DNA of 64,000 bases, from contig NZ_RAPR01000001.1 in the NCBI RefSeq assembly GCF_003610235.1, positions 2,108,001 to 2,172,000 of the forward strand, written 5' to 3'. This stretch comes from Catellatospora citrea (lineage in GTDB: Bacteria; Actinomycetota; Actinomycetes; Mycobacteriales; Micromonosporaceae). The notes beneath the pieces are model-generated. The model was not told the DNA's origin. It saw only the letters and a program-made list of their open reading frames with translations, and searched no databases. Shown piece by piece: positions 55,887-61,144 of this stretch. The position numbers were made by a program, and so were the translations under genes. Position 1 is the first letter of the stretch. Every line of letters begins with the position of its first letter.

Positions 55887-56309
55887 CTAGGCCGCGGCCC
55901 TGCGCGGGCGGTTGAGCATGGCGGTGATCTCGGTGCGGCGGGCGTGGCGCTGGGCCTCGCGCAGGCCGGTGACGTATTCGACCAGTTCGGCCTTGGCCTG
56001 CGGGTCGAGGTCGGACTGCAGGATCGGCGTCATCTCCTCGTCGGCGTCGCGGTGGGCCACGTTGGCGGCCGCGGTCAGGGCGTTGACCACGTCGTCGCCG
56101 AGCGCCTCGGCGACCCGGCGCACCGAGCCGACGGTCACCGACTCCCCACCGTCCCGGATCCAGTCGAAGATCGTCTGCCGGGCGATGCCCGAGTCGCGGG
56201 CGAGCTTCGCCACCGACCAGCCGGGGCGGCGCGTCATGCGGCGCAGATACCGGCCCCACTCGGTGTCCGGCTGCGCTCTGTCGCCCGCTGCCGCTGATAC
56301 GTCGCCCAT
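55887..56309 (-). CDS. HTH (XRE-like) transcriptional regulator
   Basis: This 140-residue protein has an N-terminal helix-turn-helix (SVAKLARDSGIARQTIFDWI followed by SVRRVAEALG), a spacer, and a short helical C-terminus rich in Arg and Glu. ATG at 56307-56309 is the likely start. It is divergent from the BldN-like cassette across about 430 bases with repeated sequence motifs, so it may regulate that cassette or itself. Confidence 0.8.
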   Translation of the reverse strand: MGDVSAAAGDRAQPDTEWGRYLRRMTRRPGWSVAKLARDSGIARQTIFDWIRDGGESVTVGSVRRVAEALGDDVVNALTAAANVAHRDADEEMTPILQSDLDPQAKAELVEYVTGLREAQRHARRTEITAMLNRPRRAAA

Positions 56310-56741
56310 ACCTAACAGGCTACCGGGCACGTCCGATGCGTTTCCATCACCCACACGTCGTTAACAAGCGACGCACCTTCCGGTAATGGCCTCGACGTCG
56401 GAAGGGTGATGAGCCGGTCGACGGTCACCCGTTAGAGGGTAATAGTCGTTTCCATACGTCGTTGCTTGCGTCGTGTATGGACGACGGTTATGGTGACGTC
56501 CAGCGCCAGACCGACAGATCCAGATGACGGTGCGTCGCCCGCAAACAACGTGGTCCGCGCCCGGACCACGTCATCGTCTCGGGATCGGCCGGCCGGCGCC
56601 GCAGCGGTACGCCGCTGCTCCCCCCTCGCGGTGTGGCCGCCCAAGGCACTGGGCGGCCACACCCCGGGCCCGCCGGATCGTGAACCCCGGTCCGGCGGGC
56701 CCTCGATCGAGGATCCCCCCGCCAGAAGAGGAGCTACCTAC
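56310..56741. promoter_or_regulatory. Divergent control region with repeats and dyads upstream of the BldN-like cassette
   Basis: No convincing gene lies here. GTTTCCAT followed by ACGTCGTT occurs twice (56340-56361 and 56448-56463). CGTCG(8)CGACG lies at 56356-56373, TCACCC(6)GGGTAA at 56425-56442 and CCATAC(17)GTATGG at 56452-56480. These are probable binding sites for the flanking HTH regulator or others, and they lie before the hairpins at 56630-56702. Confidence 0.5.
56630..56702 (+). promoter_or_regulatory. Two tandem strong hairpins in the leader of the sigma cassette
   Basis: Hairpin one (56630-56663) has a 14-bp stem GGTGTGGCCGCCCA / complement with a 6-base loop. Hairpin two (56666-56702) has a 12-bp stem GGGCCCGCCGGA / complement. 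They follow a possible promoter and end 40 bases before the leader ORF. They look like terminators, yet no plus-strand gene precedes them. Confidence 0.7.
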
Positions 56742-56780
56742 GTGCTCATGACACGCAAGGGCCGGGTGTCGCGCGGATGA
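56742..56780 (+). CDS. 12-codon leader peptide coupled to the sigma factor
   Basis: GTG at 56742 is preceded by AGAAGAGGAG with an 8-base gap, the best ribosome site in the region. The peptide MLMTRKGRVSRG ends in a TGA that overlaps the sigma-factor ATG (ATGA). The sigma ATG itself has no good ribosome site, so it may be translated only by coupling. Confidence 0.5.
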   Translation: MLMTRKGRVSRG

Positions 56781-57406
56781 GCCCGACCGCAGTCACGCCG
56801 GAAGCCCGCACCAGCCTCGCCGGTTCGGTGCCCGAGGAGCAGTCGTACGTATGGAACCTGGTCGAACGAGCGCAGCAGGGCGACACCGAGGCGTTCGGGA
56901 AGATCTACGCGCAGTACGCCCCCGCGGTCTTCCGCTTCATCTACTTCCGGGTCCGGCACAGCCCCACCGCCGAGGACCTGACGTCCGACACCTTCCTGCG
57001 CGCCCTCAAGCGCATCGGCAGCGTGCGCTGGCAGGGCCGCGACTTCGCGGCCTGGCTGATCACCATCGCGCGCCACATCGTGGCCGACTACTACAAGTCG
57101 GGACGCTACCGCTTCGAGATCAGCGGCGAGGTCCTCGACTTCGACCAGGAGGAGTTCAGCCTCGACGGCGCTCCGGACCGGGTCGCCATGGACCACGTGA
57201 ACAACCTCGCGCTGCTCGCGGCGGTCAAGAAGCTCAACCCGTCCCAGCAGCGCTGCATCGCGCTGCGCTTCCTGGTGGGACTGTCCACCGCGGAGACGGC
57301 GCAGTCGATGGGCAAGAGCGAGGGCGCGGTCAAGGCGCTGCAGTGCCGCGCGGTGCGGATGCTCGGCCGGCTGCTGCCGGACGGATTCGAGGAGGGCAGG
57401 TCATGA
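56777..57406 (+). CDS. ECF RNA polymerase sigma factor, BldN-like
   Basis: This 209-residue ECF sigma factor is closely similar to Streptomyces BldN. The region-2 part has LVERAQQGDTEAFGKIYAQY, FRFIYFRVRHSPTAEDLTSD, FLRALKRIG and WQGRDFAAWLITIARHIV. The region-4 part has LNPSQQRCIALRFLVGLS and ETAQSMGKSEGAVKALQ. The long N-terminal pro-extension of Streptomyces BldN is absent, so no proteolytic activation is expected. The ATG overlaps the leader-peptide stop, and its own stop overlaps the next gene (ATGA). In Streptomyces BldN controls sporulation-stage surface proteins; here the role is inferred. Confidence 0.9.
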   Translation: MSPTAVTPEARTSLAGSVPEEQSYVWNLVERAQQGDTEAFGKIYAQYAPAVFRFIYFRVRHSPTAEDLTSDTFLRALKRIGSVRWQGRDFAAWLITIARHIVADYYKSGRYRFEISGEVLDFDQEEFSLDGAPDRVAMDHVNNLALLAAVKKLNPSQQRCIALRFLVGLSTAETAQSMGKSEGAVKALQCRAVRMLGRLLPDGFEEGRS

Positions 57407-57882
57407 CCCTGTCCACCACCTTCATCTCGCTCTACACGGCAGCGGTGGCCGCGGTGAGCTTCTCGGCGACGCTGTTCCTGATGCGCGACCGGCTGTCGCT
57501 GGTCGAGGAGGCGAAGCTGATCCTGGACCGGGTCGACGACGCCGACGAGCAGTGGTGGGGCGTCGAGGACGGTCCGCAGCCCGCACGTCGGCGTGCGGTG
57601 GTCGCGTTCTGGCGGCGCGCCCTGGACCGGCGCCGGTCGGATGGATCCCGGCGGCGACCCGCCGGACCGACCGGCGACCCCGCCACCGCGACCCGGCCGA
57701 CCGCGATCGGGCAGGCCGCGGCCGTCGGAGCGGCTCCGGCGGTACGCCGACCGGAGGCCGATCCGGAGGTCACCGCGTACATCGACGTGGTGCCGCCGTA
57801 CCCGGCGGTGGACTACCACGGCCGGCACACCGCGACCGGGGCCTACCCGCAGGTCCCGTCGACCCGGCAGGCATACCCGTGA
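57403..57882 (+). CDS. Single-helix membrane protein, possible anti-sigma partner
   Basis: This 159-residue protein has one N-terminal membrane helix (FISLYTAAVAAVSFSATLFL) followed by MRDR, which predicts a cytoplasmic remainder. Acidic stretch VEEAKLILDRVDDADEQWW follows, then an Arg-rich and Pro/Ala-rich low-complexity tail. I do not recognise the family. The position, coupled directly behind a BldN-like sigma gene, matches that of the membrane anti-sigma RsbN in Streptomyces, but no anti-sigma domain is visible. Confidence 0.75.
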   Translation: MTLSTTFISLYTAAVAAVSFSATLFLMRDRLSLVEEAKLILDRVDDADEQWWGVEDGPQPARRRAVVAFWRRALDRRRSDGSRRRPAGPTGDPATATRPTAIGQAAAVGAAPAVRRPEADPEVTAYIDVVPPYPAVDYHGRHTATGAYPQVPSTRQAYP

Positions 57883-58187
57883 TGCGACGCGCGTGGCGGC
57901 GGTGGCTGGCCCGGCTGTGCGACCGGGAGGCCATGCGGGCCGGGGTGGAGGTCAGCGCGCTGCGCACGGCGCTGGTCGCCGAGACGGTGCTCGCCCGGCG
58001 GGCCGAGGAACTGGCCCGCCGGGCCTGCCGGGAGCGCGACCGCTACCGCGGTGAGGCGGTCGCGCTGCACGCCGAGCTGGCCGCGGTGCGCGACCTCCTC
58101 GACGGCGACCCGTCCGGGTGGCCGTTCTGGACGAGCGACCAGCGCGGACTGCCCACCCCGGACACGAGGGAGCACGCCGGTGTCTGA
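57882..58187 (+). CDS. Small Arg-rich coiled-coil protein, function unknown
   Basis: This 101-residue protein is almost entirely helical and charged: WRRWLARLCDREAM, then VEVSALRTALVAETVLARR and ELARRACRERDRYRGEAVAL, suggesting a coiled coil. ATG at 57882 shares its A with the preceding stop (TGATG), and the stop lies eight bases inside the next gene, so it is firmly embedded in the operon. I do not recognise it. Confidence 0.7.
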   Translation: MRRAWRRWLARLCDREAMRAGVEVSALRTALVAETVLARRAEELARRACRERDRYRGEAVALHAELAAVRDLLDGDPSGWPFWTSDQRGLPTPDTREHAGV

Positions 58188-58518
58188 CACCCCCACTCCC
58201 GTCCCCCGGCTGCCGGCACACGTACGCGAAGTGGCCGTGCGCGCCTGCGCCGGTGACGAGCTGACCCCGCGGCTGGTGACGGCGCTGGCCGCCGTCTACG
58301 CCGCGGGGCTGCGCGACGGGGCCGGTGTGCGTGCCGGCCGCCGCGACATGATGACCCCGGCCGAGGTGCTGGCACTGCTGCCGGTGGACCGCAAGACCGT
58401 CAAGCGCTGGGCCGACCGCGGCCTGCTGCGCGTCACCCGCACCGCCGGCGGGCACCGCCGGTATCTGCGCGAGGACGTCGCCGCCCTGCTGGTCAAGCAC
58501 GGCTGGGTGCCACGCTGA
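58180..58518 (+). CDS. BldC-like MerR-type DNA-binding protein
   Basis: This 112-residue protein has a C-terminal HTH strongly resembling BldC: MMTPAEVLALLPVDRKTVKR, WADRGLLRVTRTAGGHRRY and LREDVAALL (residues 57-104). The N-terminal 50 residues are an extra helical part (HVREVAVRACAGDELTPRL) that BldC lacks. BldC is a small regulator that sets the timing of development in Streptomyces. GTG at 58180 overlaps the preceding stop by eight bases. Confidence 0.85.
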   Translation: MSDTPTPVPRLPAHVREVAVRACAGDELTPRLVTALAAVYAAGLRDGAGVRAGRRDMMTPAEVLALLPVDRKTVKRWADRGLLRVTRTAGGHRRYLREDVAALLVKHGWVPR

Positions 58519-58530
58519 AGGAGTGGGTCG

Positions 58531-58674
58531 ATGGCTTCGGAGCTCTATCGCCGCAGGCACGGCAGCCCCCGGCTGCGCGGGATGCTGCTGCTGTTCACCG
58601 AGGGTGTGATCTTCGGGCTGGGGGTGTTCGTCTCCTTCGGAGTGTTCACCACCATGCTCACCCTGGTTCATTGA
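58531..58674 (+). CDS. 47-residue single-helix membrane protein
   Basis: This short ORF has AAGGAG eight bases before the ATG. It starts MASELYRRRHGSPRLRG, and the rest is one hydrophobic helix (LLLFTEGVIFGLGVFVSFGV) with a short end VFTTMLTLVH. It lies 12 bases behind the BldC-like gene and closes the cassette. Function is unknown. Confidence 0.7.
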   Translation: MASELYRRRHGSPRLRGMLLLFTEGVIFGLGVFVSFGVFTTMLTLVH

Positions 58675-59068
58675 TCAGCACAGAGTGATCGAGTACTACT
58701 CTGCGTAGCCTGCCTTTGAAGGCAACTGCCCGATTCGATGAAACAGCCCGTTAATGTGCGTCGATGTCCACTCATGCAGTCACTCACGGTGACGTGCTTA
58801 TCATCCGTTCATACGTTGCGATATCGGCATTTTTAGACGTACCGTGCACGTGCGAATTGCAACATGCGTCTTCTTTGAATCGGTGATGTCCTCAGCGCCC
58901 GGAGTCAGTACGACCGGATGATGGCGTGCTGACCTGCAGTCCACAATTCGGTGTCGTAAGTGAATTCGCTCTGTGTTACTAGCGCATCGGCGTCACTGGA
59001 GGCACGCTGAGTGTTCGTTCATTCGGCGTGTGCGCCCGGACGCCCAGCGGTCCCGGAAGGGAAGACAG
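58675..59068. promoter_or_regulatory. AT-richer control region with dyad and BldD-box-like site
   Basis: This 394-base gap is clearly less GC-rich than its surroundings and shows no gene. CAGAGT(11)ACTCTG lies at 58681-58703, just behind the small membrane protein. TCACTCACGGTGA at 58780-58792 matches eight of nine fixed positions of the BldD consensus TNACNCWGNGTNA. It probably holds the promoter of the following membrane protein gene. Confidence 0.5.
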
Positions 59069-59614
59069 GTGATCGTCAAAGTCAAAAGCGGGGCGTTCTG
59101 GCTCTCCATCGTCGGCCTCGCCCTGGTCCTGGTACTGGCGGCCTATCTCGTCATCTGGCCGTCCGGCCAGGGGGTGAACAGGGATACGAGTGTGCTGGCC
59201 AGAGTGATCGCCGCGACCGCGATCGGGGTGGTGCTCATGCTCGCCGGCGCCGTGGCGCTGTCCAACGAGCACCTCGTCAACCGGCTGCACGAGGCGGAGA
59301 CCCGCCAGCTGGCCCGCGACCACCAGCGCGGTGAGCACATGCGCATCGTGATCACCGCATTGAGCGACATCGTCCAGCAGCTCGCCCAGTACAGCAAGAC
59401 GCTGGAGGAGGCGGCCGGACGGGCCGTCGGGGTGGAGACCCCGCAGCTGCACGTGCGCGAGGACCTCGGCAAGCTCAGCGCGATGGTGGAGCTGCTGCGC
59501 GAGGACCAGGAGGAGCTGTTCGAAGTGGTCACCCGCATGCAGGCCGACAACGTCACCGTCCTGCCGGTGCGCCGCGGCGGCGACCCGAAGAGCCGCGGAC
59601 CCGCCAGCCGCTAG
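59069..59614 (+). CDS. Two-helix membrane protein with cytoplasmic coiled-coil
   Basis: This 181-residue protein has two membrane helices (FWLSIVGLALVLVLAAYLVI and IAATAIGVVLMLAGAVAL) and a long helical, charged region, NEHLVNRLHEAETRQLARDH through LREDQEELFEVVTRM, likely a coiled coil. The C-terminus is Arg/Gly-rich. GTG at 59069 has AAGGGAAG upstream. I do not recognise it. Its position downstream of the developmental cassette suggests, but does not prove, joint regulation. Confidence 0.75.
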   Translation: MIVKVKSGAFWLSIVGLALVLVLAAYLVIWPSGQGVNRDTSVLARVIAATAIGVVLMLAGAVALSNEHLVNRLHEAETRQLARDHQRGEHMRIVITALSDIVQQLAQYSKTLEEAAGRAVGVETPQLHVREDLGKLSAMVELLREDQEELFEVVTRMQADNVTVLPVRRGGDPKSRGPASR

Positions 59615-59631
59615 GCCGACTTGAAGTGATC

Positions 59632-59679
59632 AGGAAGGGCACCTTCTACAACGCATGGCGTTGTGAAGGTGCCCTTCCT
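59632..59679. repeat. Intergenic palindrome of the GAAGGGCACCTTC type (family F)
   Basis: The arms GGAAGGGCACCTTC and GAAGGTGCCCTTCC, continued by ACAACGC / GCGTTGT, enclose an ATG loop with one bulged base. I recall near-identical elements in many Micromonospora intergenic regions. It sits in the convergent gap of the membrane protein gene and gltD and may terminate both. Confidence 0.85.
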
Positions 59680-59682
59680 TCG

Positions 59683-61144
59683 TCAGGCAGGGATGAGCGG
59701 GCGGGAGGAGGGTTCGACGGGGGCGGGCAGGCTGCCCGCGCCGCCGAGGTAGCGGTGGATGGCGGCGGCGGCGCTGCGGCCCTCGGCGATCGCCCAGACG
59801 ATCAGGGACGCGCCCTTGTGGGCGTCACCCGCGACGAAGACGCCGTCGGTGGGGGTCTGCCAGTCGGGTCCGCACTCGACGGTGCCCCGCGCGCTGCGGG
59901 ACAGGCCGAGCTGCGCCAGCGCCTCGGCGGCGTCGGTGCCCTCGAAGCCGATGGCCAGCAGCACCAGGTCGGCCGGGATCTCCCGCTCGGTGCCGGCCAC
60001 CTCGGTGACCACACCCCGGCCGTCGATCCGCTCGACGATCACGTCGACCAGCACGATCGCGCGGACGCGGCCCTGCTCGTCGCCGACGAAGCGCTGCACG
60101 GCCACCGAGAACACCCGGTCGCCGCCCTCCTCGTGCGCGGCGTAGTTGCGCAGGATCCACGGCCAGGTCGGCCACGGGTCCCGGCCCTCGTCGCGCGCGT
60201 CCGGCGGCTGCGGGTAGCGGTCGAGCTGAGTCACCGACGCCGCGCCCTGCCGGTGGGCCACGCCCAGGCAGTCCGCGCCGGTGTCGCCGCCACCGATGAT
60301 GATCACGTGCTTGCCGGCGGCGGTGATCTGCGGCTGCGGTCCCCCGGCGACGGCCACGTTGGCCTGGGTCAGGTGGGCCATCGCCTGGTGGATGCCGGCC
60401 AGCTCGCGGCCGGGCGTGTCGGTCTGGCGTCCGGCGAGCGCGCCGGTGGCCAGCAGCACCGCGTCGTGCTCGGCGCGCAGCTGGGCCGCGGACACGTCCA
60501 CGCCGACGTTCACACCGGTGCGGAAGGCCACGCCCTCGGCCAGCAGCTGCTCGACGCGGGCGTCGATGTGCTGCTTCTCCAGCTTGAAGTCCGGGATCCC
60601 GTAGCGCAGCAGGCCGCCGATCGCGTCGTCGCGCTCGTACACGGTGACCGCGTGACCGGCACGGGCCAGCTGCTGCGCGGCGGCCAGCCCGGCCGGGCCG
60701 GAGCCGACCACGGCCACCGTCTTGCCCGACGGGGCGACGGCCGGCTGCGGGCGGACCCGGCCGTTCTCGTACGCCCGGTTGATGATCTCGACCTCGACCT
60801 GCTTGATGGTGACCGCATCGTCGCCGATGGCCAGCACGCAGGACGCCTCGCACGGCGCCGGGCACAGCCGCCCGGTGAACTCCGGGAAGTTGTTCGTGCT
60901 GTGCAGCGACTGGATCGCGGCGTTCCAGTTGCCGGTGCGGACCAGGTCGTTCCAGTCCGGGATCCGGTTGCCCAGGGGGCAGCCCTCGTGGCAGAACGGG
61001 ATGCCGCAGTCCATGCAGCGGCCCGCCTGCTCGCGGATCAGCTCGTCGTCGGCGGAGGGGTACACCTCGCGCCAGTCCATGATGCGCACCGGCACCGGCC
61101 GGCGGGCCGGCATCCGCCGGCCGAAACGCAGGAAACCATTGGGG

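Follow-up and report, generated by a model that had tools for sequence, protein, structure and literature searches.

The window analysed here, a stretch of 64,000 nucleotides from the 9.3-Mb genome of Catellatospora citrea (family Micromonosporaceae; contig NZ_RAPR01000001.1, positions 2,108,001 to 2,172,000), contains a compact cassette of regulatory genes that begins with a gene for a short extracytoplasmic function (ECF) sigma factor of the BldN lineage. The explanation that we favour, tentatively and at a little under an even chance, is that this cassette is a lineage-specific regulatory operon built on a BldN-derived sigma factor, i.e., an extra circuit with its own control; that it is a self-contained gene switch, as an earlier note on this DNA had proposed, is probable. 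BldN, RsbN and BldC are part of the best-studied bacterial developmental network. The parts of this explanation that are directly supported are the content and order of the genes, the selection acting on them, their distribution, the paralogy of the sigma factor, the presence of the canonical pair elsewhere in the genome and the conservation of the leader.

The cassette comprises five genes on the plus strand (56777–58674) that overlap or almost abut, at the positions given in the earlier note, which were verified. The sigma factor gene (56777–57406, 209 aa) overlaps through an ATGA with g2 (57403–57882), which encodes a membrane protein of 159 aa; a TGATG joins g2 to g3 (57882–58187), whose product is an Arg-rich soluble protein of 101 aa that by inspection looks helical or coiled-coil. 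This gene shares 8 nt with g4 (58180–58518, 112 aa), where a BldC-like helix-turn-helix of the MerR type (residues 57–105) follows an orphan N-terminal half (1–56), and after a gap of 12 nt comes g5 (58531–58674), coding for a single-helix membrane peptide of 47 aa. The unit is larger than first described, and includes a divergent regulator (HTHm, 55887–56354), a leader (56500–56741) and perhaps g6 (59069–59614). The five reading frames are not chance ones, since all of them are present in the eight cassette loci compared and their ratios of non-synonymous to synonymous substitution rates (dN/dS, calculated by NG86 between the window and three of the seven other cassette-bearing species) reveal purifying selection on each gene: 0.10–0.18 for the sigma factor, 0.38–0.44 for g2, 0.29–0.59 for g3, 0.12–0.31 for g4 and 0.36–0.45 for g5. 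The claim that three accessory proteins belong to no known family also stands, given that neither Pfam and NCBIfam (E up to 1) nor PHROGs and PADLOC (E up to 0.01) gave a match for g2, g3 or g5. A defence system was considered and rejected; PADLOC only matched the helix-turn-helix of g4 and HTHm to mad1, which is not a defence system.

The cassette is confined to one genus. In a set of 61 genomes (our own, 10 others of the genus, 26 of the family and 24 of the order), the cassette sigma was found in eight, all of them Catellatospora (E 2.7e-130 or better, the next best matches having 4.7e-81); the cassette is thus kept in eight of the 11 Catellatospora genomes, with identical order and flanks. 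Its other genes follow the same distribution: g2 is present in the same eight of the 11, g4 and g5 in the same eight of 354 Micromonosporaceae genomes (thresholds of 1e-13 and 1e-4, with a limited number of candidates scored per genome), and HTHm in eight of 51 genomes, which are exactly the cassette holders. Catellatospora names are borne by nine of the 13 matches to g2 and eight of the 10 matches to g3, and all the named ones belong to this genus (about 8000 candidates scored in each case); the protein-database search with g4 returned three proteins and missed close orthologues present in genomes, hence it is no evidence of absence. The earlier note had staked its proposal beforehand on the conservation of gene order, and this order, i.e., pyk, an LLM-type flavoprotein, HTHm, leader, sigma, g2, g3, g4, g5, g6 and gltD, is the same in the eight loci. 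On the other hand, the idea of a cassette general to actinobacteria has to be given up, as no other genus searched has it. A search of the open-licence literature (BldN with BldC, Actinoplanes, Catellatospora sporulation) found no paper on this operon.

The site without the cassette can be seen in the three genus genomes that lack it (G004, G008 and G009), where LLM and gltD are separated by 192–245 bp versus approx. 3.9 kb in the window, and where the alignment of the flanks with the window reaches the start of LLM on one side and the end of gltD on the other. No cassette gene was found beside gltD in four other genera checked (G018, G019, G020 and G029). A tree of gltD and pyk groups the three cassette-free genomes in one clade (96/96), and the eight carriers are not resolved as one clade; the absence of the cassette from other genera favours one gain rather than one loss. 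Between LLM and gltD, the 3.9-kb block is either wholly present or wholly absent, which would also fit a remnant of a mobile element or phage, namely a small island of regulators in which the repressor (HTHm) is phage-like and the helix-turn-helix of g4 excisionase-like; pointing in this direction, g4 matched an excisionase/regulator family of PHROGs (2e-8), and HTHm matched repressors (1e-6). Nevertheless, the reading frames of the block include no integrase, transposase or structural gene, a single site is occupied in all eight genomes, the best structural and family matches of g4 are to BldC, and the sigma factor derives from within the family, so that we regard this origin as highly improbable.

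The cassette sigma shows the sigma-70 regions 2 and 4 (Pfam), and its best solved relative is 6dxo_A (2.3e-54). Against TIGR02952, the NCBI equivalog model for BldN, it reaches 178.6 bits, below the cut-off of 206.45; the label BldN-like therefore holds at the level of domain and lineage. The genome encodes two BldN-like sigmas, the cassette copy and another one at 3739438, with 67% identity between them. The latter is the canonical BldN, with 304 aa, a sigma domain that starts at residue 125 and 210.5 bits, and it is the only one over the cut-off among 101 matches in the genome; these 101 regions, collected with the BldN-family sigma model at E ≤0.001, are mostly other sigma factors and reflect a very large sigma repertoire. 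Compared with this 304-residue protein, the cassette sigma indeed lacks a pro-extension, as had been noticed, its sigma domain beginning near residue 25–28 of 209; an alternative in-frame ATG present in three of the eight species would lengthen it by 8 residues. The N-terminal pro-extension of Streptomyces BldN was reportedly described by Bibb and Buttner in 2003.

A tree of 53 rows groups the eight cassette sigmas together (100/100), the stem that leads to them measuring 0.86 changes per site, and places them inside a clade of 32 family BldN rows (98/94), their exact position there not being resolved. After this long stem the cassette sigmas hardly change across the eight species, and from both features it follows that a copy of BldN first diverged rapidly and has been kept constant since. 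An ordinary, redundant paralogue on which selection has been relaxed could also be proposed, as three of the 11 genus genomes lack the cassette at no known cost; nonetheless, this idea is scarcely tenable in view of the dN/dS of the sigma gene (0.10–0.18) and of the near identity of its products in eight species. Another independent-looking duplication exists in a different genus, where genome G019 has its own second BldN-like sigma (L048:6615-7151, minus strand) with 52% identity and an end branch of over 2.

The canonical bldN is followed by a gene for an RsbN-like protein, in which an N-terminal domain (about 105 residues) precedes a single membrane helix at 111–129, and which matches DUF5667 (36.2 versus a cut-off of 27). 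This label refers to the position beside bldN, the layout and DUF5667, and not to similarity with the RsbN of 6DXO, since a search against solved structures gave no relative at E up to 10, that RsbN included. The pair is intact in the four genomes tested, two with the cassette (our own and G007) and two without it (G004 and G008). According to a passage of PMC4255298, rsbN adjoins nearly all bldN orthologues. A separate, canonical-looking BldC, labelled by its resemblance to the 6ama chain, is encoded at L094. The earlier note had seen in the cassette the union of bldN and bldC in one operon; because the true bldN, its RsbN-like neighbour and a separate bldC all remain elsewhere, the cassette is an extra circuit beside intact canonical genes rather than two loci united.

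Comparison of the cassette sigmas with 30 family BldNs (the odd paralogue of L048 having been excluded beforehand) revealed 17 positions that are identical in the eight cassette sigmas and differ from the residue kept in at least 29 of the 30; H105Y, N181S and Y190C are among these cassette-fixed changes. The change N100H replaces an Asn present in the 30 family and also in 14 of 14 order BldNs, and the residues replaced by E159R and V171T, in region 4, are equally kept in the 30 and the 14. Position 100 aligns with the Asn of other ECF sigmas (N80 in the sigma-E of E. coli), close to the −10 base that is flipped out; likewise, by alignment, H105Y, N181S and Y190C presumably fall in the helices that read the −10 and −35 elements. 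A passage of PMC8103513 describes that ECF sigmas read the flipped −10 base with a pocket and the loop L3. As the sigma evolved rapidly at positions that read the promoter and has remained fixed thereafter, it probably recognises promoters that differ from those of BldN.

The arrangement recalls the sigma-BldN/RsbN system of Streptomyces (PDB 6DXO), as in both cases the gene for a BldN-lineage ECF sigma precedes that of a single-helix membrane protein. The cassette differs in that its sigma has no pro-extension and scores below the BldN cut-off, the partner does not resemble the RsbN-like protein of the genome in sequence (E 8.0) and has no cytoplasmic domain before its helix, a BldC-like gene is coupled, and the whole is restricted to a genus. 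In anti-sigmas of class III, the cytoplasmic sigma-binding domain comes before the single helix. RsbN is, in the portion of PMC8103513 that deals with it, a membrane-anchored anti-sigma of this class, which inhibits its sigma and tethers it to the membrane. In g2 the only hydrophobic segment spans residues 2–28, with no charge before it and a conserved Arg just after; given the positive-inside rule, the remaining 130 residues are predicted to be cytoplasmic. After the hydrophobic segment come a long helix (predicted), a stretch rich in Arg and a nearly invariant C-terminus (the last 45 residues in eight species). No relative was obtained with a g2 profile against solved structures (best E 0.67). 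The AlphaFold model, which is poor, has a long helix at 3–51 and another at 59–79, followed by disorder. Thus, of the suggestion that a membrane protein occupies the place of RsbN, the position stands and the build does not. By analogy, g2 could block and tether the sigma as RsbN does, with the opposite layout, and is a candidate partner for its control.

Two other arrangements were weighed here. In the first, the canonical RsbN-like protein would still hold the short sigma, and g2, g3 and g5 would form a small membrane complex that is the output or the sensor of the operon. The intact canonical pair in the four genomes, the 67% identity that the sigma keeps with BldN and the lack of a domain ahead of the g2 helix, unlike RsbN (class III, again in the excerpt of PMC8103513), make this possible, though doubtful, as the sigma has changed at many positions, E159R and V171T of region 4 among them, and each of the eight loci shows a direct coupling of g2 with the sigma gene. 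In the second, g3 or the g3–g4 pair would be the partner of the sigma, as a short helical anti-sigma similar to class II, and g2 would only be an anchor; g3 is short and helical-looking, its first 75 residues are highly conserved, it lies in the coupled operon, and class II anti-sigmas, e.g., CnrY, bind with two helices (a passage of PMC7406223 that swaps the names of sigma and anti-sigma). No sequence link of g3 to any anti-sigma was detected in Pfam, NCBIfam or PHROGs, and this arrangement is improbable.

Operons that encode an ECF sigma and a membrane anti-sigma of classes I to III share with the cassette the co-transcription of a sigma and a membrane protein gene; the cassette departs from them in the helix at the extreme N-terminus with a predicted inverted layout, in two or three further orphan genes, in a DNA-binding protein of its own and in a structured leader. 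A stronger form of our explanation, which we consider rather unlikely, would be that the cassette represents a new sigma-control unit, in which a respecified copy of BldN is controlled by an N-terminally anchored g2 outside the three anti-sigma classes, acts alongside a co-regulator of the BldC type of its own, and is gated by a structured leader, not described before, with a coupled 12-codon reading frame.

Residues 57–105 of g4 match BldC in sequence (1.6e-11) and in fold (best 6ama and 6amk), with about 53–55% identity over this domain, and the MerR-type helix-turn-helix is what g4 has in common with BldC (PDB 6AMA and 6AMK). It differs in its location in an ECF operon, in the N-terminal 56 residues, which gave no match in sequence or structure searches, and in its length, as with 112 aa it is not a single-domain protein like the solved BldC chains of 71–72 aa; its score against NF033787 (BldC) is 70.1 bits, below the curated cut-off of 77. 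The description of g4 as BldC-like with an extra N-terminal half is therefore correct for the domain. A further BldC-family protein of 115 aa is encoded in the same genome (L095:1152-1499, minus strand).

The leader that precedes the operon contains four hairpins. In the eight species, 64 of the 70 columns at 56506–56575 are invariant, with an unbroken run of 46 bp (56522–56567), as well as 96 of 125 at 56576–56700 and 30 of 40 at 56466–56505, compared with 41 of 129 further upstream and with 37–63% of the four-fold sites in six genes. The four hairpins are fully paired in all eight species (399 of 399 cells of the alignment), 43 of the 50 pairs never vary, and pairing is maintained in hairpin 3 despite a change in both arms in two species and in hairpin 4 despite a change from C-G to U-A in one. 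The folding energies give z values from −5.05 to −8.42 versus shuffles across the eight species (−4.63 in another computation); since 78 random segments of the window had a mean z of −1.05 (sd 1.77, minimum −7.68, 9% at −4 or below), this signal is strong but not unique, and it is the energy and the maintenance of pairing that support the structure, which covariation does not. Near-full-length copies were found in eight of 300 family genomes, only before this operon; short weak matches (at most 53 bits) in 69 others were taken as chance. None of the 4227 families of Rfam 15 matched the leader, and two matches elsewhere in the stretch searched, at E 4, are at chance level. The leader is a candidate new cis-regulatory RNA.

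After the leader comes a 12-codon reading frame (56742–56780, plus strand) with a good Shine-Dalgarno, whose stop overlaps the sigma start as ATGA; a predicted consensus helix partly pairs the Shine-Dalgarno in all eight species. Its length and frame are the same in the eight species when the alignment is inspected by eye, and tblastn found it in five of them. The divergently transcribed HTHm (minus strand, 155 aa) is a regulator of the XRE/Cro type and a predicted repressor; the Pfam helix-turn-helix families were all below their cut-offs, and PHROG transcriptional-repressor families matched with E down to 1e-6. An element of 20 nt in its promoter region (56356–56375) has an inverted counterpart upstream of the leader (56467–56486; 75% identical). 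As a similar inverted element precedes each transcription unit, this suggests that HTHm is a repressor with two operators.

Together, the history and mechanism that we propose would be as follows. The operon would have been inserted between LLM and gltD in an ancestor of the eight Catellatospora genomes, and its sigma would come from a duplicated Micromonosporaceae BldN that shed its pro-extension, evolved rapidly where it reads promoters and was then frozen. HTHm would act as a repressor of the operon from the intergenic region between them; translation would be tuned by the leader and the 12-codon reading frame, and sigma, g2, g3 and g4 would be translationally coupled. The membrane-held g2, whose charged C-terminal portion would face the cytoplasm, would keep the sigma inactive, replacing the lost pairing with RsbN; g4 would act like BldC, binding DNA as a partner at promoters that are the same or overlap, and the likeliest outputs would be g6 and envelope or sporulation genes of the substrate hyphae. 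That g2 controls the sigma, and any role in development, is something that we infer. A sporangial role, which had also been suggested, is unlikely, as Catellatospora is listed in a section of PMC6113628 among the genera that bear spores on substrate hyphae, as opposed to those with spore vesicles.

The cassette is a natural experiment, in which an extra BldN beside the original lost its pro-extension and its RsbN neighbour, was altered where it reads promoters and gained a BldC-like partner in one operon (further background on BldN, RsbN and BldC is found in parts of PMC4125116 and PMC9205884). It raises two testable questions: by what means the paralogue of an ECF sigma is kept separate from its parent, and whether there are anti-sigmas that fall outside the three known classes. 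Moreover, a direct comparison is possible within a single genus, as some of its species carry the block and others lack it. If the accessory proteins do not touch the sigma, the cassette would be a genus-specific orphan operon, of less interest.

The consensus of BldN promoters is CGTAAC-N16-CGTTGA (a passage of PMC2375139). In the 390-bp gap upstream of g6, two sites similar to it but with a 17-bp spacer occur in the eight species; they were chosen after the fact and are weak. The first (58739–58767, plus strand) reads TGAAAC-N17-CGATGT, with TGTAAC or CGTAAC in the other seven species, and the second (58858–58886, plus strand) reads TGCAAC-N17-CGGTGA. A refined pattern drawn from these sites gave 21 sites in our own genome and 12 in G002, versus 5 and 0 for the reversed control. 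Upstream of the operon, a BldN-like site at 56438 reaches at least 8 of 12 matches in only four of the eight species.

Several results weigh against the explanation that we favour. BldN-like sites appear at chance frequency in the window (0.55 per kb per strand), where 70 matches of at least 9 of 12 to the consensus mean that the sites near the cassette are not significant alone. With the refined pattern, the two further sites common to our own genome and G002 lie inside reading frames, and no regulon was found. A scan for sigma-70 promoters found none in 56300–56800, and the same scan together with one for terminators gave nothing in that interval or in 58500–59750. At position 100 of the sigma, another solved ECF sigma (9isn) also has His, for which reason N100H is a change of kind, not a loss. 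The C-terminus of g2, the putative partner of the sigma, is placed in the cytoplasm by the positive-inside rule only, and the model of this protein is poor, with a mean predicted local distance difference test (pLDDT) of 57 and a predicted template modelling score (pTM) of 0.23. Finally, covariation in the leader is not above that of shuffles, 64 of 500 of which reach the observed value.

The last gene of the block, g6 (plus strand, 181 aa), is kept in the eight cassette loci and is a possible downstream target of the sigma. Its product has two hydrophobic segments within residues 1–70 and a long helical tail, and it matches DUF6239 below the cut-off (25 versus 27.1 bits). The gap between g5 and g6 (58680–59068) contains long blocks conserved in the eight species, e.g., 58850–58905, which may correspond to promoters, a 5' untranslated region or a small RNA.

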